Shown: piece after piece, positions 11,840-56,276 of the stretch
Numbering within the stretch: position 1 is the stretch's first letter
Layout: the number at the start of each line of letters is the position of its first letter
Assembly (NCBI GenBank): GCA_018396705.1
Contig: JAGTQZ010000004.1
Location: forward strand, 124,001 to 188,000
Reading direction: 5' to 3'
Origin: Candidatus Bathyarchaeota archaeon
GTDB lineage: Archaea; Thermoproteota; Bathyarchaeia; Bathyarchaeales; Bathycorpusculaceae
DNA: 64,000 nucleotides
Position numbers and translations under genes: made by a program
Notes under the pieces: generated by a model
What the model was told of the DNA's origin: nothing
Databases searched by the model: none
The model's input: only the letters and a program-made list of their open reading frames with translations

Positions 11840-12889
11840 ATGCGAGAGGCTATGCTCTATGAACGTTTAGAAGGAAAAAAGGTTAAGTGTATTTTGTGCG
11901 GTAGGAGATGCACGATAAAGAATGGTGGAATAGGCTTCTGTCTTGTTAGAAAGAATGAGGAAGGCATTCTCTATACACTTGTTTATGGGAAAGCCATATC
12001 TGCCTGTGTAGATCCAATAGGTAAAAAACCCCTTCTACACTTTAATCCCGGCGCCTCTGTTATGTCCATCGCCACTGTTGGATGCAATTTTCGCTGTCAA
12101 TTCTGTGACAACTGGATGATCAGCCAAGAAAAGCAAATTGCTGGTAGAGATTTTCCTCCAGAAGAAGTTGTAAAAGCAACAAGAGATAACGATTGCCAAG
12201 GGATAAGCTACACATACACAGAACCCACAATATTTTTTGAATATGCGTACGAAACGGCGAAGCTTGCACATCATCTTGGCTTCTTCAACACTTTTGTAAC
12301 AAACGGATACATGACGCCTGAAGCTATTAAAACTATTGCACCTTACCTCGACGCGGCCACTGTGGACTTTAAAGGCGGCGGAGACCCGGATTTCTACAAA
12401 ACTTTTTCATCTGTTCCATCGGTTGAGCCCATTTTTGAATGCTTAAAGGAAATGAAGCGCCAGGGCATTCACATAGAGATCACAAACCTAGTGATACCGA
12501 AAATAGGTGACTCAATAGATCAGATTATGAAACTTGCGGTATGGGTTAAAGAAGCTTTGGGTGCGGACACTCCTTTTCACCTACTCCGTTTCCATCCTGA
12601 CTATAAACTTACTGATATTCCCTCGACACCAATTCAAACGTTAGAGAAAGCTTATGCAGCCGCCAAAAGTGCCGGGTTAAACTTCGTTTACATTGGAAAT
12701 GTACCTGGACACCCGGCTGAAAACACCTATTGTCCAAACTGTAACGAGCTTTTGATTAAACGTTTCAGTTTCGAGATTACCAAATGGAACCTTACAAAGG
12801 ACATGCGCTGTCCCGTTTGCGGGCGTGAGATCCCAATAAAGGGAAAACTTCACCCAAGCGGCTACGCCTATCCATACGCATTATTTTAA
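11840..12889 (+). CDS. amrS: AmmeMemoRadiSam system radical SAM enzyme
   Basis: 349 residues, the usual length. An N-terminal zinc/Fe-S-like motif (CILCGRRCTIKNGGIGFCLVR) precedes the radical SAM cluster motif C82-x3-C86-x2-C89 (CNFRCQFC). SYTYTEPTIFFEY and LLRFHPDYKLTD are family signatures, and the C-terminus has a further zinc ribbon (CPNC...CPVCGREI). In other genomes this enzyme travels with Memo and AMMECR1 proteins; neither is in this window. The pathway is unknown. AAGGCGGTG precedes the ATG. Confidence 0.88.
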   Translation: MREAMLYERLEGKKVKCILCGRRCTIKNGGIGFCLVRKNEEGILYTLVYGKAISACVDPIGKKPLLHFNPGASVMSIATVGCNFRCQFCDNWMISQEKQIAGRDFPPEEVVKATRDNDCQGISYTYTEPTIFFEYAYETAKLAHHLGFFNTFVTNGYMTPEAIKTIAPYLDAATVDFKGGGDPDFYKTFSSVPSVEPIFECLKEMKRQGIHIEITNLVIPKIGDSIDQIMKLAVWVKEALGADTPFHLLRFHPDYKLTDIPSTPIQTLEKAYAAAKSAGLNFVYIGNVPGHPAENTYCPNCNELLIKRFSFEITKWNLTKDMRCPVCGREIPIKGKLHPSGYAYPYALF

Positions 12890-12920
12890 AAGATTATTAA
12901 AAAATTGTGGTTGAGTCTTT

Positions 12921-14012
12921 ATGTGGAAGTTTTTGCGTCCAGATGCCGTGGCTGTGTTAAATAATAAAGCTGCGAGAAGGAGTTTAGCTAGGTATTTTGC
13001 TGTGATGCAAGATGAAAAACCAGCCAAATTTCAAATAGCCAAGAAACTTCCAGCGGATTTCAAGAAAGAGGACTCTATGGAGGAATTATGGCAAAAACAT
13101 GAGGCACTTACACGGGAATTTTATCAACTTGAAAAAGATGTAAATGCGAAACTGGAAAACTTTGAAAGTTTACCCATCCCAGAGAGCTCTTATCTGGACC
13201 TTAAGATTGAAATTGCGAGGCGCATGCTCGAGAAATGCCGCTTTTGCGCTAGAAAATGCGGAGTTAACAGGCTTAAGGGCAAGTTGGGCTTCTGTAAATG
13301 CGGGCTAGCCATCACCGTTTCAAGCATCTTCGAACACATTGGTGAGGAGCCGGAGCTCGTTCCCTCAGGTACAATTTTCACGATGGGTTGTACAATGAAG
13401 TGTAAGCACTGTCAAAATTGGACAATATCTCAGTGGATAGAAAAGGGGGAAGTCTATGAGCCGGAGAGACTTGCGTGTGAGGTTGAGGCTTTGCGTAGGA
13501 GTGGTTGTCGAAATGCAAATCTTGTGGGCGGAGAACCAACTCCATGGCTTGAACAGTGGCTTAAAACATTCAAACACGTAAAAGTGAACATACCAGTGAT
13601 TTGGAATTCTAACACGTATTACAGTGCGGAAACAGCCGAACTCCTCGCTGGTTTTGTCGATGTATATCTTTTAGACTTCAAATATGGGCCGGGAGAATGT
13701 GCTGAGAAAATTTCAGAAGCTCCCAACTATTGGACAGTCTGCACTCAGAACCATTTAACAGCCAACAAATATGGCGAACTTATAATACGAGTCCTAGTTC
13801 TACCGGGGCACCTTGAATGTTGCACAAAACCTATACTTGCTTGGATAGCTGAAAACCTTGGCAGAGAAACTCGGGTAAACGTAATGTTTCAGTATAGGCC
13901 AGAATGGCGAGCCTATGAGGTTCCAGAGCTTAGGAGAAGGTTGACAAAGGGCGAAATGGATAAGGCAATTGAGCTGGCAAAAGAAGCGGGGTTAACCAAC
14001 TTCATAACTTAG
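12921..14012 (+). CDS. Radical SAM protein, PflX/AmrS-like
   Basis: 363 residues. An N-terminal ~100-residue helical region leads to CRFCARKCGVNRLKGKLGFC, equivalent to the N-terminal motif of the upstream gene, then the cluster motif C157-x3-C161-x2-C164 (CTMKCKHC), VGGEPTPW and a TIM-barrel remainder. It belongs to the COG1313/COG1180 group annotated as pyruvate-formate-lyase-activating homologues. No glycyl-radical enzyme is visible in the window. It starts 31 nt after amrS, so the pair likely form one transcript. Confidence 0.82.
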   Translation: MWKFLRPDAVAVLNNKAARRSLARYFAVMQDEKPAKFQIAKKLPADFKKEDSMEELWQKHEALTREFYQLEKDVNAKLENFESLPIPESSYLDLKIEIARRMLEKCRFCARKCGVNRLKGKLGFCKCGLAITVSSIFEHIGEEPELVPSGTIFTMGCTMKCKHCQNWTISQWIEKGEVYEPERLACEVEALRRSGCRNANLVGGEPTPWLEQWLKTFKHVKVNIPVIWNSNTYYSAETAELLAGFVDVYLLDFKYGPGECAEKISEAPNYWTVCTQNHLTANKYGELIIRVLVLPGHLECCTKPILAWIAENLGRETRVNVMFQYRPEWRAYEVPELRRRLTKGEMDKAIELAKEAGLTNFIT

Positions 14013-49027: not shown

Positions 49028-49795
49028 TTACGTGCTTACCTTTGGGGGCGGGCGGACTGCCTTGCCAAGCTTTATTCGTAATGCTATACGGTACAGTTTC
49101 CGCAGCGACTTCACAAGCTGCTCAACAGTCGGCAGTGCCGAATAAATTAAGGGTATATGATCGTACTCTGCCAATCTAATCGAGTAATCGTCCGGTCTCA
49201 TGCCATGGAAGACGACAACTCGCGGTTTTAGGCTGCTCATGCGCACAAGCATCATAGGTGAATTTTCGTTACTAATATTTGTAAAAATAAGCGCCCGTTC
49301 AGTTGTAGCGCCAAACAACTGGGCGTACTCAAAGCCAGAAAGTGTTTCTATGGTTTTACGGCTGTCCACAATAGTGTAGCCCAAGATCTCCTTAACTTTT
49401 AGGTTAGAGCAAGCCACAATTTCGCCCTTAATGGCTTTGCACAAATATTCAACCCGCACTGAAATTGGGAACTCCCGCAAGTCCACAACTGCCATGCTTG
49501 GCGAACTTGTAAGCTTGGCGAATTCGCGAATGAAACGGCTTCCCCTCTCCTCGTCAATCTGCAATAAAGCCCAAACAAAACGTCGCACAAACTTTGTACC
49601 TGGGCTTTTCCGCCGTCCACTTTCATAATCACTTATAACAGAAGGCGAAAGCATCATCTTATCAGAAAGTGTGGTCTGCGAAACACCGAAAAGCTCCCGC
49701 CACTTCCGCATGGCGGCGCCCGGCTTATTGGAGAGGATGATCTCGCCAGCGATTCGCCTTGCGAGAACCTCGCGAACGTTAGGGGACACAGACAT
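49028..49795 (-). CDS. HTH-domain transcription regulator (COG1709 type)
   Basis: 255 residues from ATG 49795, chosen because GGGAAAGGCG precedes it and a TATA-like TTTATAT (49849-49856) is too near the upstream ATG at 49840. N-terminal XRE helix-turn-helix: WRELFGVSQTTLSDKMMLSPSVISDYESGRRKSPG. The C-terminal ~150 residues are an alpha/beta sensor domain (EILGYTIVDSRKTIETLSGFEYAQLFG). Many archaea carry such a regulator; the target is unknown. Divergent from the cyclase island, so a candidate regulator of it. Confidence 0.82.
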   Translation of the reverse strand: MSVSPNVREVLARRIAGEIILSNKPGAAMRKWRELFGVSQTTLSDKMMLSPSVISDYESGRRKSPGTKFVRRFVWALLQIDEERGSRFIREFAKLTSSPSMAVVDLREFPISVRVEYLCKAIKGEIVACSNLKVKEILGYTIVDSRKTIETLSGFEYAQLFGATTERALIFTNISNENSPMMLVRMSSLKPRVVVFHGMRPDDYSIRLAEYDHIPLIYSALPTVEQLVKSLRKLYRIALRIKLGKAVRPPPKVST

Positions 49796-50091
49796 GTAAA
49801 CGCCTTTCCCTTTCAGTCCGCCATCTTCACCCATAAACATGCCAAATATAAAACTGTACCGCTCCTATGCAAACAACATTGGAGAAGGAAGAGACAAATC
49901 GTCACAGTGCATGTGTGCTGCGCCTGCATAGAAAATCTTGTAACTAGAAACTAGATGAGCCTAAACACCATGAAAAACTTGCATTAAACATCAATGTGGA
50001 TCCAACAACGTAATAAATGTTAACGCATCAAAAGGTTCTTGTTGATAGCAAAACTTATTTTGTAGGCGATGGAAATCTTTCAAGGTGAACG

Positions 50092-50976
50092 GTGGTTAAG
50101 ATGAAAAAGTTTGAAGTTGATTCTAAATACCTGCATGGCATGCTAGATCCAAAATACATTGGCAAACCAGAAGATGTTCTAAAAAAGGTCAGCGTCGAAA
50201 TATTGGGCAAGGAAGTTGAAGTATACGATCTATCGCAGCCGTTTGGACCAGGTGTACCGCTTTGGCCATACTTCGAGGATATTAAAATTGAAAGGATGCA
50301 TTATCATGCAAAGTCCCGTGTGTTATCGCAAGTGCTTACACATACGATGCATGTCTCCACCCATGCTGACTCTCCAATACATGTTGAAGAAGGCTTCCCA
50401 TCCACTGAGCAAATACCAATAGAAAGGTACATGGGAAAAGGCGTCGTCGTGTCCATACCAAAGGGCAAATGGGAAATAATCACTCCTGAAGATCTTGAAA
50501 AAGCTGATCCGCCGATAGAAAAGGGTGACATAGTAATAGTTAACACTGGCTGGCACCGTTATTGGGGCGACACCGTCAAATACTTCTGTTATGCACCAGG
50601 CTTCTACAAAGAGGCAGGAGAATGGTTCGTGAAAAAACAGGTCAAGGCTGTGGGCACAGACACACAGGCGCTTGATCATCCTCTTGCAACTAGGGAGGTG
50701 TGGTGTCAGCCTGGAGGTGACGAGCGAAACCGTGTTTTACCATGGCTTGCAGACGAATATAAAAAGGAGACGGGAAGAGATGTAACTGAGGACTTCCCAT
50801 ATTGGGAGCCATGCCACAGGCTTTTACTGACGCATGGCATAATGGGCTATGAAAACGTTGGAGGCGACATAGACAAAGTCACAGGCAAAAGATGCACAAT
50901 CATAGGCCTACCATTAAGGTGGGTAGGCGGAGACGGATCAATAGTAAGGCTAATAGCAATCGTCGAAAAAAGATAG
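50092..50976 (+). CDS. Cyclase-family metal-dependent hydrolase
   Basis: 294 residues from GTG 50092 (AAGGTG 5 nt upstream; ATG 50101 is possible). The family motif HxGTHxDxPxH appears as H87-V-S-T-H91-A-D93-S-P-I-H97, with Ser in place of Gly. Relatives include kynurenine formamidase, isatin hydrolase and ring-opening cyclohydrolases. Four further His/Glu pairs are typical metal ligands. First gene of the island holding the RidA-like protein and molybdenum transhydroxylase; ring opening of a reduced polyphenol would be consistent, but this is inference. Confidence 0.82.
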   Translation: MVKMKKFEVDSKYLHGMLDPKYIGKPEDVLKKVSVEILGKEVEVYDLSQPFGPGVPLWPYFEDIKIERMHYHAKSRVLSQVLTHTMHVSTHADSPIHVEEGFPSTEQIPIERYMGKGVVVSIPKGKWEIITPEDLEKADPPIEKGDIVIVNTGWHRYWGDTVKYFCYAPGFYKEAGEWFVKKQVKAVGTDTQALDHPLATREVWCQPGGDERNRVLPWLADEYKKETGRDVTEDFPYWEPCHRLLLTHGIMGYENVGGDIDKVTGKRCTIIGLPLRWVGGDGSIVRLIAIVEKR

Positions 50977-51003
50977 CAACCCAAACAACCGATTCAGCAA
51001 CAT

Positions 51004-51020
51004 TCTCAATTTTTGTTTTT
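51004..51020 (+). terminator. Possible terminator after the cyclase gene
   Basis: TTTTTGTTTTT (51010-51020) about 33 nt after the stop, flanked by a short CTCAA/TTGAG dyad. Oligo-T tracts are typical archaeal terminators. Confidence 0.4.
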
Positions 51021-51191
51021 GAGGCGCTAGGTGCTTGTCGCTTCAAGTAAACGTAAATTCCTCCCCGTCAAAATCGTTTTTCTCTGTTTGTGATGGAATA
51101 CCCTAGAGGTTCGGAGTAGTATAGCTTCGCGGAGTAATATTTCTATTTAGTTATCTCTGACAGTTTTCTTCCAGATATTAAGCAGAGTTGG

Positions 51192-51659
51192 TCAAGGGAT
51201 GTATCCAATAGCATCTATTTCTATGAGAAACTCTGGCCTTGCTAAACTTGCTACAACCGCCACCGTGCTTGCCGGTGGGTTCTCAACTAGGAAAGGAGCG
51301 TATTTTTGGTAATATTCTAGTTCTGTTTTTCGCATGCGAGGGTAATCCTCCAAATTCTTAAGAAGTATCAAAGTTTTGACAATGTTGTTCATAGAACTGC
51401 CCACCTCCTCCATGGCTTTTCTTACCTTGTCAAGCGCGTTGATCATTTGTTCTTCAAATGTTGAAGGTATTTCTAGAGTCTCATCATTCTGGCCTTGGCA
51501 TCCAGAGATGAATATTAGGTTGCCAACGACCACTGATCTGGAAAATTTAGGATGCTGTGGAGGTACATGGGGATAAGCCAACTTCTTGCCAGCCCAATAC
51601 TCAGGATAATACCTTACTTCATCCCTTGCTTTGATTTTTATACGTGCATCCTTCACCAT
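51192..51659 (-). CDS. RidA-family protein with altered active site
   Basis: 155 residues, slightly long because of an N-terminal ~35-residue extension (DEVRYYPEYWAGKKLAYPHV). RidA core: VGNLIFISGCQGQND, NALDKVRKAMEEVGSSMNNIVKTLILLKNLEDYPRMRKTE, and PASTVAVVASLARPEFLIEIDAI. The catalytic arginine of 2-aminoacrylate deaminases is replaced by Ser in PAST, so it is probably not a canonical RidA. Divergent from the molybdenum enzyme across a 147-nt promoter region. Confidence 0.88.
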   Translation of the reverse strand: MVKDARIKIKARDEVRYYPEYWAGKKLAYPHVPPQHPKFSRSVVVGNLIFISGCQGQNDETLEIPSTFEEQMINALDKVRKAMEEVGSSMNNIVKTLILLKNLEDYPRMRKTELEYYQKYAPFLVENPPASTVAVVASLARPEFLIEIDAIGYIP

Positions 51660-51806
51660 ACTTTGCCTCCGAATTATTAAGATTAAAAGGCTTTTTACAT
51701 TAAAAATTTTTAATTAGATAATCTGGCATTTGTTTCGCACAAATTTTTTGTATTTTTAAATTTTATATCGTAAACAACAAACTTTAAGAAAGAGGTGGTG
51801 GGGAAA

Positions 51807-54419
51807 GTGCACGAGTTTGAGGCTGGTTTTGGGCGAACACTCGAAGACGGCACCAAGATCTTCACTAATTGCACTGTTGGCGGGCCTGTCTTTGTATACG
51901 TCAAAGATAGAAAAATTATACGGGTAACCCCAATCGAGTTTGGACCTGATGATGCGGAGTCTTGGGTCATTGAAGCTAGAGGAAAGTGTTTCAAACCTCC
52001 AAGAAAGTCGCTACTTGCGCCCTACGTAATTGCTGCTAGATCTAGGGTTTATTCGCCGGAAAGAGCTCTTTACCCGCTTAAAAGAGTTGATTTTAACCCT
52101 GATGGTGATAGGCACCCAGAGAACAGGGGTAAGTCAGGATACGAGCGAATAAGCTGGGAGGAAGCTTTTGATATAATTACAAAGGAGATCGAACGTGTAA
52201 AAAGACAGTACGGTCCAGCGGCCATAGCTGCAACTGCATCTTCTCATCATGAATGGGGAAACATAGGATACCGCCATAGTGCATTCTTTAGATTCTTCAA
52301 CCTTTTAGGTTTCACATATATCGACCACAACCCGGACAGCTGGGAAGGATGGCATTGGGGGGCAATGCACATGTGGGGTTTCTATTGGAGGCTAGGCGTT
52401 CCAGAACAATACGACCTGCTTGAAGACGCTTTAAAGCACTGTGAAATGATAGTTTTCTGGTCGTCGGATCCCGACTCAACTCGTGCTATAGGCTATCAGG
52501 GATACGAATCTGCTCCTTGGAGGCAATGGTTGAAGGACCTTGGAGTGAAAATGATTTTCATAGACCCTCACTATAACTCTACTGCTGTCCTTTTTGCGGA
52601 TAAATGGCTTGCGCCTAGACCTGGAACGGATACCGCGTTGGCCTTAGCTATTGCTAATGTGTGGATAACTGAAAATAGGTATGACAAAGAGTACGTGGCA
52701 ACGCATACGTATGGATTCGATGAATTTAAAAAGTATGTGCTCGGAGAAGAAGACAAAACGCCGAAGACTCCTGAATGGGCTGAAGAGCTTACTGGAGTTT
52801 CTGCTAGGGAAATAAGAGCTCTGGCGAGGGAATGGGCGTCCAAAAGAACAATGTTGGCTGCTGGAGGACTTGGCGGATGGGGAGGCGCTTGCAGAGCAGC
52901 ATATGCAACTGAATGGGCTAGGATGATGGTTGCGCTTGTCGCTATGCAAGGTCTAGGCAAACCAGGAGTGAACATTTGGAGCACCACCCAAGGCGCGCCT
53001 TTCAACGCAGACTTCTATTTCCCGGGATATGCAGAAGGCGGGATATCAGGCGACCCGCAAAAGACTGCAGCCTCTTTTGAACTTTTAGGCAGGGGAATGA
53101 CCAAAAAGCCTACGACTTGCCCAGTCCATGATAATCATCACATACCTAGGCTATTGTTGCCGGAATGCATATTGAACCCACCCGTTGAATGGAGAGGAAG
53201 AGGTTTCTGTGGCGAGTCAATAGAGCATCAACTTAGACTATATAGGTATCCAGCAACAGGGTACAGTGAAGCTAAAATACTGTACAGGATTGGCGGGGCA
53301 TACATTGGCACGATGACTGAAACCAACAGGTGGGCTAAAATGTACCGGAGTCCAAAACTGGACTTGATCGTAAGTCAGACTTTATTCGTTAAGGAACCGG
53401 ATACAAAATTTGCTGACATAATTCTTCCCGCGTGTACAAACTTTGAACGCTGGGATATAAGCGAATGGGCTAGCTGCTCCGGTTACGTCCCGCATTCCTC
53501 TTGTGGAACCAACCATCGGGTTATAGTACTTCAGATGAAATGTATAGAACCTTTAGGAGAGTCTAAAAGTGACTACGCAATATTCGCTGAGCTAGCTAAA
53601 AGACTTGGCTTTTACGATGAATTCACCGAGGGCGGAATGACTGAACTGGATTGGGTTAGAAGAATGTTCAATGTAACCGACATATCAAAGTATATATCCT
53701 GGGAGGAATTCAAGAGGAAGGGATACTTTGTTGTACCTCTTCCAAAACCATATAGGTCAACACCAGCCTTACGTTGGTTCTACGAAAACCGACCCCGTGA
53801 CACTCCTGATTGGGGTCCGGCTCCACGGGATGCTCCAGTTAACAAGGTGGGCTTGGCGACGCCCACTGGGAAAATAGAGTTTGTCTCTCAATCACTTATG
53901 CGTTTTGACCCCGGAGATAAAGAGAGGCCCCCAGTACCACATTTCATCCCTTCATGGGAAGGCCATTTGTGCGAAAAAGCAAAGACGTACCCGCTTCAGC
54001 TAATTTCAACACATCCTCGATTCTCCTATCATACACACTATGATGGCAAGGGAACGTGGATAAATGAAATTCCTGAACATAGAGTCCTTAAAGAGGATGG
54101 GCACTATTACTGGGTTATAAGGATAAACCCGAAGGACGCTGAACCACGAGGAATTAAAGACGGAGACATAGTTAGAGTTTATAATGACAGGGGTTCTGTA
54201 TTATGTGTTGCAAGAGTCACTGAAAGAATTCGGCCTGGTGTTGTGCATGGTTGGGAATCGTGCAACGTCTATGAACCCATAGGTGAACCGGGAGATCCAA
54301 AATCAATTGATAAAGGAGGCTGCCTTAACCTGTTAACCCCCTCAAGGTTTATATCTAAAAATGCTTGCGGTATGGCGCCTAACTCCTGTTTGGTTGAGGT
54401 TGAGAAATGGAGGGGTTGA
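51807..54419 (+). CDS. Pyrogallol transhydroxylase-like molybdopterin oxidoreductase, large subunit
   Basis: 870 residues from GTG 51807 with AGAGGTG 9 nt upstream (GTG 51795 or 51798 possible). DMSO-reductase fold with bis-MGD binding regions (FWSSDPDSTRAIGY, GGLGGWGGACRA, GVNIWSTTQGAPFN). It lacks the N-terminal four-cysteine Fe-S motif; only TNCTVGGPVFVYV is present, as in transhydroxylase. Candidate Mo ligand and substrate residues are H147, D177, S178 and Y408. By memory of the Pelobacter acidigallici enzyme (875 residues; His144, Asp174, Ser175, Tyr404) these align with a constant offset. The likely reaction is hydroxyl transfer on trihydroxybenzenes. Other substrates are possible. Confidence 0.8.
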   Translation: MHEFEAGFGRTLEDGTKIFTNCTVGGPVFVYVKDRKIIRVTPIEFGPDDAESWVIEARGKCFKPPRKSLLAPYVIAARSRVYSPERALYPLKRVDFNPDGDRHPENRGKSGYERISWEEAFDIITKEIERVKRQYGPAAIAATASSHHEWGNIGYRHSAFFRFFNLLGFTYIDHNPDSWEGWHWGAMHMWGFYWRLGVPEQYDLLEDALKHCEMIVFWSSDPDSTRAIGYQGYESAPWRQWLKDLGVKMIFIDPHYNSTAVLFADKWLAPRPGTDTALALAIANVWITENRYDKEYVATHTYGFDEFKKYVLGEEDKTPKTPEWAEELTGVSAREIRALAREWASKRTMLAAGGLGGWGGACRAAYATEWARMMVALVAMQGLGKPGVNIWSTTQGAPFNADFYFPGYAEGGISGDPQKTAASFELLGRGMTKKPTTCPVHDNHHIPRLLLPECILNPPVEWRGRGFCGESIEHQLRLYRYPATGYSEAKILYRIGGAYIGTMTETNRWAKMYRSPKLDLIVSQTLFVKEPDTKFADIILPACTNFERWDISEWASCSGYVPHSSCGTNHRVIVLQMKCIEPLGESKSDYAIFAELAKRLGFYDEFTEGGMTELDWVRRMFNVTDISKYISWEEFKRKGYFVVPLPKPYRSTPALRWFYENRPRDTPDWGPAPRDAPVNKVGLATPTGKIEFVSQSLMRFDPGDKERPPVPHFIPSWEGHLCEKAKTYPLQLISTHPRFSYHTHYDGKGTWINEIPEHRVLKEDGHYYWVIRINPKDAEPRGIKDGDIVRVYNDRGSVLCVARVTERIRPGVVHGWESCNVYEPIGEPGDPKSIDKGGCLNLLTPSRFISKNACGMAPNSCLVEVEKWRG

Positions 54420-54421
54420 AA

Positions 54422-55270
54422 ATGGTTAAATGGGGTTTGGTTGTAGACATAACGAAATGCAATGGGTGCTACAATTGTTTCTTAGCTTGTAAGGATGAAC
54501 ACTGGGACAATGACAATTTGCCCTACTCTGCGCCACAACCTAGGCATGGACATTTCTGGATGCAAGTTTTCACAAGGGAGAGAGGCCAATTCCCCCATGT
54601 GCGCGTGGCATATATGCCCGTACCCTGCATGCACTGCGACAACGCGCCATGTATTAAGGCAGCTAAAGATAACGCGATCTACAAAAGACCAGACGGGATA
54701 GTGATAATTGATCCACAAAAGACAATCGGCCAGAAAAATCTAGTCAATTCGTGTCCCTATGGCGTTATTTTCTGGAATGAGGAGAGAAGAATTCCGCAGA
54801 AATGTACTTTTTGCGCCCACCTCCTTGACAAAGGCTGGAAAGAGCCGAGATGTGTGCAGGCATGTCCAACTGGAGCACTGATATTCGGAGACCTAGACGA
54901 CCCTAACAGTGAAGTATTCAAGCTGGTTGCGACTGGAAAAGCCGAACCGTTTAAACCGGAACTTGGCACAAATCCAAGGGTATATTATATCGGGTTGTAC
55001 AGATTTACTAAAGAATTCATCGCAGGAAGCGTGGCCTTCAAAGACACCGACGAATGCGCAGAAAACGTCAAAATAACTCTTATTAACAAAGAAGACGGCG
55101 AAACTAGAACGACCTTTACGAACGCGTTTGGAGACTTCGAGTTTGACGGATTAAATCCAGGCGAATACTCGATAAGCTTTGAGTATTCAAACTACCAAGC
55201 GAAGAGTATAGAAGTTAAATTAGATAAAAGTACATACATCGGCTACGTTTTTCTTGAAAGGACTAAATAG
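54422..55270 (+). CDS. Transhydroxylase-like Fe-S subunit with beta-sandwich C-terminal domain
   Basis: 282 residues from ATG 54422, with GGAGGGG before it; an ATG at 54407 lies inside the large subunit. Twelve cysteines (CNGCYNCFLAC, CMHCDNAPC, NSCPYG, CTFCAHLL...CVQAC) suit three [4Fe-4S] clusters, as in transhydroxylase beta subunits and fewer than the usual four. From ~residue 200 a transthyretin/Cna-B-like domain follows (AENVKITLINKEDGETRTTF, NAFGDFEFDGLNPGEYSI), a feature known from Pelobacter transhydroxylase. The gap to the large subunit is 2 nt, so they are co-translated. Confidence 0.83.
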   Translation: MVKWGLVVDITKCNGCYNCFLACKDEHWDNDNLPYSAPQPRHGHFWMQVFTRERGQFPHVRVAYMPVPCMHCDNAPCIKAAKDNAIYKRPDGIVIIDPQKTIGQKNLVNSCPYGVIFWNEERRIPQKCTFCAHLLDKGWKEPRCVQACPTGALIFGDLDDPNSEVFKLVATGKAEPFKPELGTNPRVYYIGLYRFTKEFIAGSVAFKDTDECAENVKITLINKEDGETRTTFTNAFGDFEFDGLNPGEYSISFEYSNYQAKSIEVKLDKSTYIGYVFLERTK

Positions 55271-55343
55271 CCCCTTTTTCTTTTGTTGACTAATAGTTGA
55301 TTTTAACTGTTCTGTGGATTTTATGTCTCCAACTTTAGGTGGG

Positions 55344-56276
55344 TCAACCCACAAATACCATGAATAACCCAACAACAATTATAGATCCGGTTGCGACTTT
55401 GGCTGTCACTTTTTCATGGAGAAAAACTGCTCCAGTTAATGTTGAAAATAGTGGTGTTGTCGAGGAGATGGGAACAGCTTGTGATTCTGGTATTAGAGTA
55501 AAGCTGAACGTTAGAAGGAACCACCCTAAACCTATTGCTATCAAGCCGCCGAACACGAGCATAGCCGCGTTTTTCCATCCAACTTTTAAGGAGTTAATTC
55601 TCTTTCCATTAGTTAGCGAATAAGCAAGTAGCAAAACTGTAACGGCAAAAAGTCTCGTTGTGTTCACGGCGTAGGCTTGTTCGAGGCTTTTTGCACTTTT
55701 TATGGCTATGTTGATTAGAGAAATGCTTATGGACCATGCTATGGCTGTTGAAAGGGCGTAAACTAAACCCTTTAGATGAGGCTTCTTCACGAACTTTTCG
55801 TTATTCGCCTCTGTTTTTTCATTTGTTAAAAGCCACATACCCACGACTATCGTTGTAGCTCCCATGATCACTTGAGGAGTTATGGTTTCGCCAGCGAAAA
55901 AAGCCCAAATAAGGTTAAAAAGCGGGTAGGTGCATGTTATCGGAACAGCCCTTGAAACACCCAATGTTTTTAGGCTTAACATGTAGAGTGTGTCGCCAAG
56001 CCCTAAACCGATGGCTCCGCTGACGCTTGCTAAAAAGATATCTCGAGTTTGCAGTTCAGTAAGAATCATATTTTTTCTGGTAATTACTAAAAACAAAATG
56101 AGAGTGAGACTTGTTCCTAAACAACGCACGGTGTTCGCTTGAATGGATGAAGTCGAGGACAAAACCCGCCTATAAAGGATGGCTGAAAACGTCCAGCAGA
56201 GGGCTGCTCCGAGAGCTGCAAACTCGCCTATCATGGAGGGAAAAACGTAAAGCCCTAGATATTTAACAATTTTCAA
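55344..56276 (-). CDS. EamA/DMT-family transporter
   Basis: 310 residues from a TTG; ATG 56234 (MIGEFAALGAALCWTF) is an alternative. About ten transmembrane helices in two EamA repeats (GAIGLGLGDTLYMLSLKTLG and AIGLGWFLLTFSFTLIPESQ carry the repeat motif). A drug/metabolite transporter; substrate unknown. Convergent with the transhydroxylase beta gene and divergent from the B3/B4 gene. Confidence 0.9.
   Translation of the reverse strand: MKIVKYLGLYVFPSMIGEFAALGAALCWTFSAILYRRVLSSTSSIQANTVRCLGTSLTLILFLVITRKNMILTELQTRDIFLASVSGAIGLGLGDTLYMLSLKTLGVSRAVPITCTYPLFNLIWAFFAGETITPQVIMGATTIVVGMWLLTNEKTEANNEKFVKKPHLKGLVYALSTAIAWSISISLINIAIKSAKSLEQAYAVNTTRLFAVTVLLLAYSLTNGKRINSLKVGWKNAAMLVFGGLIAIGLGWFLLTFSFTLIPESQAVPISSTTPLFSTLTGAVFLHEKVTAKVATGSIIVVGLFMVFVG

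Follow-up and report, generated by a model that had tools for sequence, protein, structure and literature searches.

What brings a cyclase-family hydrolase, a RidA-like protein and a molybdenum transhydroxylase pair together in an archaeal genome, and could they take part in opening the rings of polyphenols? The genes in question lie at positions 50,092-55,270 of a 64,000-nucleotide stretch of Candidatus Bathyarchaeota archaeon DNA (assembly GCA_018396705.1, contig JAGTQZ010000004.1), which we call the window and which is C4:124001-188000 of a draft genome (1.71 Mb in nine contigs, 96.7% complete, 2.07% estimated contamination). The original prediction, made from the sequence, had described this group as a candidate polyphenol-degradation island in which a cyclohydrolase would act after transhydroxylation, and every gene that it named is found there:

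50092..50976, forward strand: cyclase-family metal hydrolase (PF04199), proposed dihydrophloroglucinol cyclohydrolase (DPGC), with a GTG start at 50,092 or an ATG start at 50,101
51192..51659, reverse strand: RidA/YjgF-family protein of 155 amino acids (PF01042, 73.5 bits against a cut-off of 27.3)
51795..54419, forward strand: AthL, molybdopterin large subunit of pyrogallol-phloroglucinol transhydroxylase (PF21423, PF00384, PF01568; match to 4v4c_A)
54407..55270, forward strand: AthS, iron-sulfur small subunit with a C-terminal CarboxypepD_reg (Ig-like) domain (PF13247, PF13620; match to 4v4c_B)

We find that this island probably encodes two steps of an anaerobic pathway for pyrogallol and phloroglucinol degradation. 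The predicted role is supported by the match of AthL to a characterised transhydroxylase, by a run of pathway genes on another contig of the same genome (C5), by the linkage of the cyclase to such a run in the related genome JZ_bin_36.1, and by a Trp-x-Tyr signature in the cyclase. A reservation about the picture of an island for polyphenol degradation is that the window encodes two of the pathway steps, the genes being dispersed over at least three loci of which it is one. Given the linkage in relatives and the genes on C5, the prediction thus appears right in substance and can be extended: the window would be one module of a dispersed route. The genes, their homology, the pocket residues and the conserved clustering are read directly from the sequences, and from them we infer every reaction.

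In the route that we propose, AthLS, a bis-molybdopterin guanine dinucleotide molybdenum enzyme, would convert pyrogallol to phloroglucinol by hydroxyl transfer, and a short-chain dehydrogenase/reductase (SDR) encoded on C5 (or one encoded on C4) would reduce phloroglucinol to dihydrophloroglucinol. The window cyclase would then open the ring hydrolytically to give 3-hydroxy-5-oxohexanoate, a 3HCDH-family dehydrogenase from C5 would oxidise this to triacetate, and BKACE would turn triacetate into acetoacetate and acetoacetyl-CoA, from which acetoacetate-CoA ligase or CoA-transferase, and then thiolase, would lead to acetyl-CoA. Upstream, gallate-type acids could enter through a decarboxylase-like gene on C5 and phloretin-type chalcones through a PhlG-like gene on the same contig.

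Throughout, C4 is the contig of the window, and C5, C3 and C8 are other contigs of its genome; L-numbers denote DNA stretches around loci and G-numbers the genomes compared, among which G321 and G348 belong to the same genus, G100 belongs to the same order and G127 is a phylum relative. JZ_bin_36.1 is a named bathyarchaeal metagenome-assembled genome (MAG), Candidatus Bathyarchaeota JZ_bin_36.1; its CDC48-type protein and that of the window genome share 83% identity. The same yardstick gives 84% for two same-order genomes, 85-98% for three genomes from the family or genus and 74-75% for two from the class, so that JZ_bin_36.1 and the window genome are probably of the same order.

The transhydroxylase pair

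Window AthL matches the large subunit of the Pelobacter acidigallici transhydroxylase (PDB 4v4c_A) with 1147.6 bits over residues 23-874, against 280.6 bits for the next-best chain, a DMSO reductase. AthS matches 4v4c_B with 250.3 bits over query residues 8-281, C-terminal domain included, and the next-best chain reaches 148.6. In alignment, 12 of the 13 AthS cysteines make up three [4Fe-4S] cluster motifs, leaving one extra, and the reading frames of AthL and AthS share 13 bases, an overlap that suggests coupled translation.

More specific information on substrate comes from the active-site pocket, which in the Pelobacter AthL we take to consist of H144, Y152, R153, D174, S175, W176, W354, Y404, F468, C557 and Y560. 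These residues are identical at 11 of 11 positions in window AthL (H151 ... Y564) and in the AthL encoded on C5. In an alignment of 100 AthL-type proteins (30 positions printed), most other AthL-type clades alter R153, W354, F468 or C557: the R153 position is Y, W or Q in all 21 proteobacterial rows, the genome's third AthL and its JZ_bin_36.1 partner carry W354M and C557S, and the AthL pair of G121 and G127 carries W354F, F468P and C557I. The window pair thus shares with the Pelobacter enzyme its two subunits with their domains, the three iron-sulfur motifs, the C-terminal domain of the small subunit and the full set of assumed pocket residues; it differs in being archaeal, in falling outside the clade of that enzyme, in lying beside a cyclase and a RidA gene, and in having several paralogues within one genome.

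Five AthL-type genes (PF21423 matches) are present in the genome, and the third AthL shares a 20-kb stretch with MoeA, MobB and MobA-like genes. Across a phylum sample of 398 genomes, own included and mostly with two candidates scored per genome, four (again with its own) have an AthL match of at least 67% over at least 600 residues. Two of the five genes are distant paralogues, about 40% identical to window AthL (L031:8426-10945 on C8 and L030:8258-10957 on C4), which differ from the Pelobacter enzyme at most of the variable pocket positions of our assumed set. The L030 paralogue, which adjoins a second cyclase and an SDR, has relatives of up to 81% identity in other archaeal genomes. Together these paralogues probably form a separate molybdenum-enzyme subfamily.

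Three further AthL-type loci were seen elsewhere. At L032:9848-13108 (reverse strand) of G127, AthL and AthS apparently form one frame of 1086 amino acids, either a true fusion or a sequencing error. At L039:1-19999 of G122, the AthL-type genes have a leader-like N terminus; interspersed among them are three large proteins resembling one another, which at a guess are B12-dependent radical-SAM enzymes, as well as repeated membrane-anchored proteins. Finally, a 4.3-kb contig titled Candidatus Methanoperedens (L072) carries an AthL/AthS pair nested among bacterial sequences, which may reflect transfer or mis-binning.

The cyclase

Is the neighbouring cyclase a plausible partner for this enzyme? 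The window cyclase reaches 120 bits for PF04199 against a cut-off of 23 (scan from 50,098) and contains the metal motif HxxxHxD (HVSTHAD). Its predicted structure (mean pLDDT 81.7) has isatin hydrolases as the nearest solved folds, and isatin hydrolase is the relative named in PMC10470551. According to the same source, DPGC has Trp20 and Tyr22 in place of Ile32 and Leu34 of isatin hydrolase. In our alignment, made without the Clostridium scatologenes DPGC (CsDPGC) and isatin hydrolase, a Trp-Pro-Tyr of the window cyclase falls on W20-P-Y22 of the cyclase from L064. W-P-Y occurs in the cyclases of the window, C4, L049, L053 (there split over two open reading frames, ORFs), L055 and L064, while ten other AthL-linked cyclase ORFs have W-P-S (four) or Y-P-G (six). 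We therefore propose that the window cyclase is a dihydrophloroglucinol cyclohydrolase.

The same data must be read with another possibility in mind, namely that the cyclase is an arylformamidase, an isatin hydrolase or some other amide or ester hydrolase that became a neighbour of AthL by accident. Its nearest solved relatives, isatin hydrolase and kynurenine formamidase, would be in keeping with such a role, as would the only NCBIfam model that it matches, the arylformamidase TIGR03035, here at 58.1 bits and thus below the cut-off of 223. We consider this improbable, as a 90% identical orthologue directly precedes the pathway run in JZ_bin_36.1, the second cyclase of the genome (on C4, 62% identical to the first) also adjoins an AthL-type pair and an SDR, and W-P-Y is common to four AthL-linked bacterial cyclases. 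The genome has two PF04199 genes in all, each adjoining an AthL-type gene; the chance of cyclase/AthL adjacency is roughly 8e-4 under random independent placement, counting 9.5 kb around each of the five AthL-type genes. We rejected chance adjacency since the associations are kept in relatives, though not in all of them.

The remaining pathway genes

The original prediction had placed the ring-reducing enzyme outside the window, and this is where candidates are found: one SDR on C5 and one on C4, the latter directly following the second cyclase. The search for an SDR of the phloroglucinol reductase (PGR) type thus yielded candidates in fitting company, the C5 one being accompanied by genes for BKACE, cupin and 3HCDH; among the 60 PDB matches listed for each, neither could be equated with a characterised reductase. 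The C5 SDR is part of a run of genes in the following order, all on one strand:

L047:18838-19821, same strand as the C5 run: 3HCDH
L047:17725-18756, same strand: BKACE
L047:17318-17674, same strand: cupin
L047:16479-17351, same strand: SDR
L047:14422-16401, same strand: acetoacetate-CoA ligase
L047:13248-14288 and 12458-13294, same strand: two CoA-transferase subunits

The acetoacetate-CoA ligase exceeds its equivalog cut-off (824.8 against 520.9 bits), and the CoA-transferase subunits exceed a Pfam cut-off and no NCBIfam cut-off. Genome-wide there is one BKACE and there are three adh_short_C2 SDR matches. With its ligase, the run points to acetoacetate as a product, in agreement with the pathway of PMC10470551. 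Some 80 kb upstream of the window cyclase, C4 carries side by side a pair of AthL-type paralogues, the second cyclase and the SDR.

Further along C5 follow a Liv-type ABC transporter, a decarboxylase-like amidohydrolase, an aldehyde ferredoxin oxidoreductase, a DAPG_hydrolase protein and the second AthL, whose AthS is truncated at the contig end. The amidohydrolase is a homologue of 5-carboxyvanillate/gamma-resorcylate decarboxylases (216 bits to 5-carboxyvanillate decarboxylase). The DAPG_hydrolase protein beside AthL (L028:8945-9574, 209 amino acids) scores 160.7 bits with Pfam and 68.6 bits to phloretin hydrolase, and such a PhlG-like gene beside AthL suggests an entry point for chalcones or acylphloroglucinols. 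Compared with phloretin hydrolase and PhlG (PDB 5xe5, 3hwp), this homologue, which lies outside the window, reaches 54 bits with the NCBIfam PhlG equivalog against a cut-off of 600. No PhlG neighbour was seen at the fixed score cut-offs of our survey of AthL neighbourhoods, which covered 80 loci, many of them incomplete and two archaeal by title.

Neighbourhoods in relatives

The pieces that are apart in the window genome are found together in JZ_bin_36.1. On its contig C69, a cyclase 90% identical to the window's stands directly before a run like that of C5, all on one strand, with identities to the C5 genes of 80% for 3HCDH, 85% for BKACE, 82% for cupin, 86% for SDR, 78% for acetoacetate-CoA ligase and 83% and 79% for the CoA-transferase; this gene order joins the window cyclase to the C5 run. 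A DPGC-like gene clustered with putative counterparts of PGR, of the triacetate-forming dehydrogenase (TfD) and of the triacetate acetoacetate-lyase (TAL) is therefore present in JZ_bin_36.1, whereas the window genome has the others on another contig. A second JZ_bin_36.1 locus matches the cyclase-SDR locus of C4 (74% and 80%), and the genome also has an AthL fragment (77% over 62 residues) next to a Liv transporter, at the end of a contig. On an 8.2-kb contig of G100, a partial AthL (84%) is accompanied by a Liv transporter and, at a distance of 4 kb, by a RidA gene (90%).

Among the 80 surveyed loci, the counts of neighbours were 10 for cyclase, 10 for BKACE, 12 for 3HCDH, six for the C5-like SDR, eight for the C4-like SDR and four for cupin. 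SDR, cyclase, 3HCDH and BKACE occur together in the bacterial AthL loci L049, L055 and L064. Two of these, L049 (a Dehalococcoidia MAG) and L064 (Desulfosporosinus fructosivorans), share with our genome SDR, cyclase, cupin, 3HCDH, BKACE and AthL genes, there within about 8 kb. They differ in being bacterial, in forming a single cluster and in showing no RidA match in the stretches covered, that of L049 ending just after AthL. Conservation of the neighbourhood, which had been suggested as a check on the polyphenol reading, is accordingly found in JZ_bin_36.1, in some bacterial AthL loci and in the RidA-AthL pair of G100, and fails for the cyclase in G100, G121 and G127, where cyclases are distant at best.

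Weighing the proposed route

Several observations speak against the proposed route. A close cyclase was found in one of the eight genomes searched, JZ_bin_36.1 (90% and 63%). G100, G121 and G127 have an AthL of at least 67% identity and cyclase matches that are at best partial (28-38%), so AthL can occur without a cyclase of the window type. G100 has no BKACE match and that of G121 is 44% identical; the BKACE of G127 is 67% identical, has an in-frame TGA and stands beside a 59% identical 3HCDH. Identity between the window cyclase and the clostridial-type one of L064 is 36%, and in the draft genome the pathway genes are split over C4 and C5. Among the best 60 of 683 PDB matches of the C5 SDR, no chain is named phloroglucinol reductase and the best match listed is 'gluconate 5-dehydrogenase'; within its best 60 matches, the C4 SDR likewise cannot be identified as a phloroglucinol reductase. 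The NADPH motif TR(S/N) given for PGR in PMC10470551 is present in none of seven aligned SDRs, those of bacterial clusters included, and its position may be misplaced: at the presumed site we find ARD in the C5 SDR, SRN in the C4 SDR and GRT in L055 and L064.

The signature residues of the two later enzymes were compared as well. TfD is described as a 3HCDH-family protein that lacks the CoA-contact residues Lys56 and Asn221 and has Ser, His and Asn (PMC10470551). With positions counted by hand on chain 6aa8, Ser and His are present in the C5 3HCDH and neither CoA-contact residue is; Val replaces the Asn of Clostridium scatologenes TfD (CsTfD) in three of three archaeal 3HCDHs, and all 12 bacterial ones keep it. 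TAL is described as a BKACE with Trp at the position of Kce Glu14 (Trp16 in CsTAL; PMC10470551); here the C5 BKACE has Val and that of L064 has Trp. The C5 BKACE may nevertheless work like TAL.

The phylogeny of AthL adds a further point against the route. In a quick maximum-likelihood tree of 100 rows, window AthL falls inside the AthL-type half and is the sister of C5 AthL (SH-aLRT 100), and the two stand outside a 64-row bacterial clade (SH-aLRT 97) that comprises Dehalococcoidia, the Pelobacter group and proteobacterial groups and holds the characterised Pelobacter enzyme. Two further archaeal pairs also stand outside it, and the nearest bacterial AthL found is 69% identical. Moreover, the Pelobacter group itself varies a little in the assumed pocket: among its 15 rows, R153 is changed in two, W354 in two, F468 in one and C557 in three. 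The function proposed for AthL rests on pocket and neighbourhood and not on strict orthology. We rejected descent from a single bacterial donor, given that the archaeal AthLs are deep branches and the tree leaves the direction of transfer unsettled.

An alternative reading is that AthLS is a related phenol hydroxylase or dehydroxylase, similar to resorcinol hydroxylase (RhL) or to catechol dehydroxylases, whose substrate is some other phenol, and that the cyclase belongs to another route of ring opening. RhL and PgtL appear as one family in PMC10100899, window AthL does not group with the Pelobacter enzyme in its bacterial clade, the five AthL-type genes of the genome may differ in substrate, and some AthL-bearing relatives are without a close cyclase. 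What makes this alternative unlikely in our judgement is that the assumed pocket residues are all Pelobacter-like where most other clades differ, and that the set of SDR, cyclase, 3HCDH, BKACE and acetoacetate-CoA ligase fits phloroglucinol.

Returning to the phloroglucinol route, a close described system is the PGR/DPGC/TfD/TAL cluster of Clostridium scatologenes (PMC10470551), with which our genome shares SDR, cyclase-family, 3HCDH and BKACE genes, a Trp-x-Tyr cyclase and, alongside, genes for acetoacetate-CoA ligase or CoA-transferase. In contrast to that cluster as described there, the genes are split between C4 and C5 with the cyclase apart (joined in JZ_bin_36.1), and BKACE and 3HCDH are each off at one signature residue. 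On balance, we lean slightly towards a broader view, in which some Bathyarchaeia ferment gallate-, pyrogallol- or phloretin-type polyphenols fully to acetyl-CoA via phloroglucinol and without oxygen, using modular loci that come and go at chromosomal sites. The modules would be entry modules (AthLS, PhlG, decarboxylase) and a core ring-opening module.

Earlier reports give this some context. Genes for benzoyl-CoA reductase and 4-carboxymuconolactone decarboxylase are reported from other Bathyarchaeia (PMC12694404) and transhydroxylases from sediment Chloroflexi (PMC3971608), and breakdown of phloroglucinol and pyrogallol is mentioned at the level of a community (PMC5264521). A survey of the molybdenum-enzyme superfamily lists 285 RhL/PgtL hits, none of them archaeal as its columns read (PMC10100899). 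The core pathway has an archaeal precedent, since a phloroglucinol cluster is reported from Archaeoglobus (PMC10470551). In the portions of the open-licence literature consulted, breakdown of phloroglucinol or pyrogallol is nowhere linked to Bathyarchaeia themselves; what is new is a likely ring-cleavage route in Bathyarchaeia, the pathway itself being known. A near-complete phloroglucinol route, with a core run common to JZ_bin_36.1, provides a testable gene set for polyphenol-ring opening in archaea, and its genes could serve as markers for sediment and peat metagenomes. If the route is real, it would bring oxygen-independent ring cleavage to lignin-associated archaea and lead pyrogallol, a product of plant tannins, into ordinary metabolites.

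An accessory island

How did the island genes come to lie where they do? Comparison with G321 and G348 defines the following features:

49866..55342, no strand: accessory island of about 5.5 kb; alignable DNA in G321 and G348 ends at about 49,865 and begins again at about 55,343/55,398
49028..49840, reverse strand: HTH_3 regulator (PF01381), conserved flank, probably outside the island
55344..56276, reverse strand: EamA-family transporter (PF00892), right flank; its counterparts at this position in G321 and G348 are 65-68% identical

Both flanks are collinear with these two genomes on one contig and the island itself is unaligned; it is an accessory locus. The predicted bounds thus captured the gene positions, while the true extra block is somewhat wider. 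In G321 its place is filled by carB and carA according to Pfam (L166:9971-14355, opposite window positions 49866-55342), and G348 has two ORFs there of matching size and start. A different carB, 51% identical, is found at C3:142155-145385 of the window's genome, which suggests that a core biosynthetic operon was exchanged too. A search of the window revealed no remnant of carAB. In the family genomes L168, L169 and L171, neither carAB nor the island is seen in the corresponding interval, and L170 is not collinear. Neither AthL nor BKACE has a match in G321 or G348. A recent arrival judged by composition was rejected: GC content is 44.3% in the island against 44.8% and 44.3% in the flanks, which is unremarkable and makes composition uninformative here.

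The regulator at the edge is indeed divergent, as predicted, but it belongs to the conserved flank: the gene is present in 27 of 40 family genomes (own included), among them both same-genus genomes that have no island, and we rejected it as the island's own regulator for this reason.

An island missing from the same place in both same-genus genomes, in a draft with some estimated contamination, invites the suspicion that it, or C5, was binned or assembled from a contaminant. We think this very improbable: the collinear flanks on a single contig and the matching GC content argue for the island being in its place, the C5 run (78-86% identity) and the cyclase (90%) recur in JZ_bin_36.1, a separate archaeal MAG, C5 also carries an ATP-dependent DNA ligase gene, and the closest bacterial AthL is as distant as noted above.

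The RidA-family protein

RidA is not a regular member of AthL loci, occurring in two of the 80 surveyed at the cut-off used, and its relatives there are 90% (L035) and 59% (L058) identical. In an alignment, PPAST occupies the usual site of the catalytic arginine of deaminating RidAs, both in the window RidA and in the three AthL-linked relatives nearest to it. We rejected a standard imine deaminase on the ground that PPAST stands where we would expect the arginine; a guess would be that this RidA binds or tautomerises an enol/keto intermediate.

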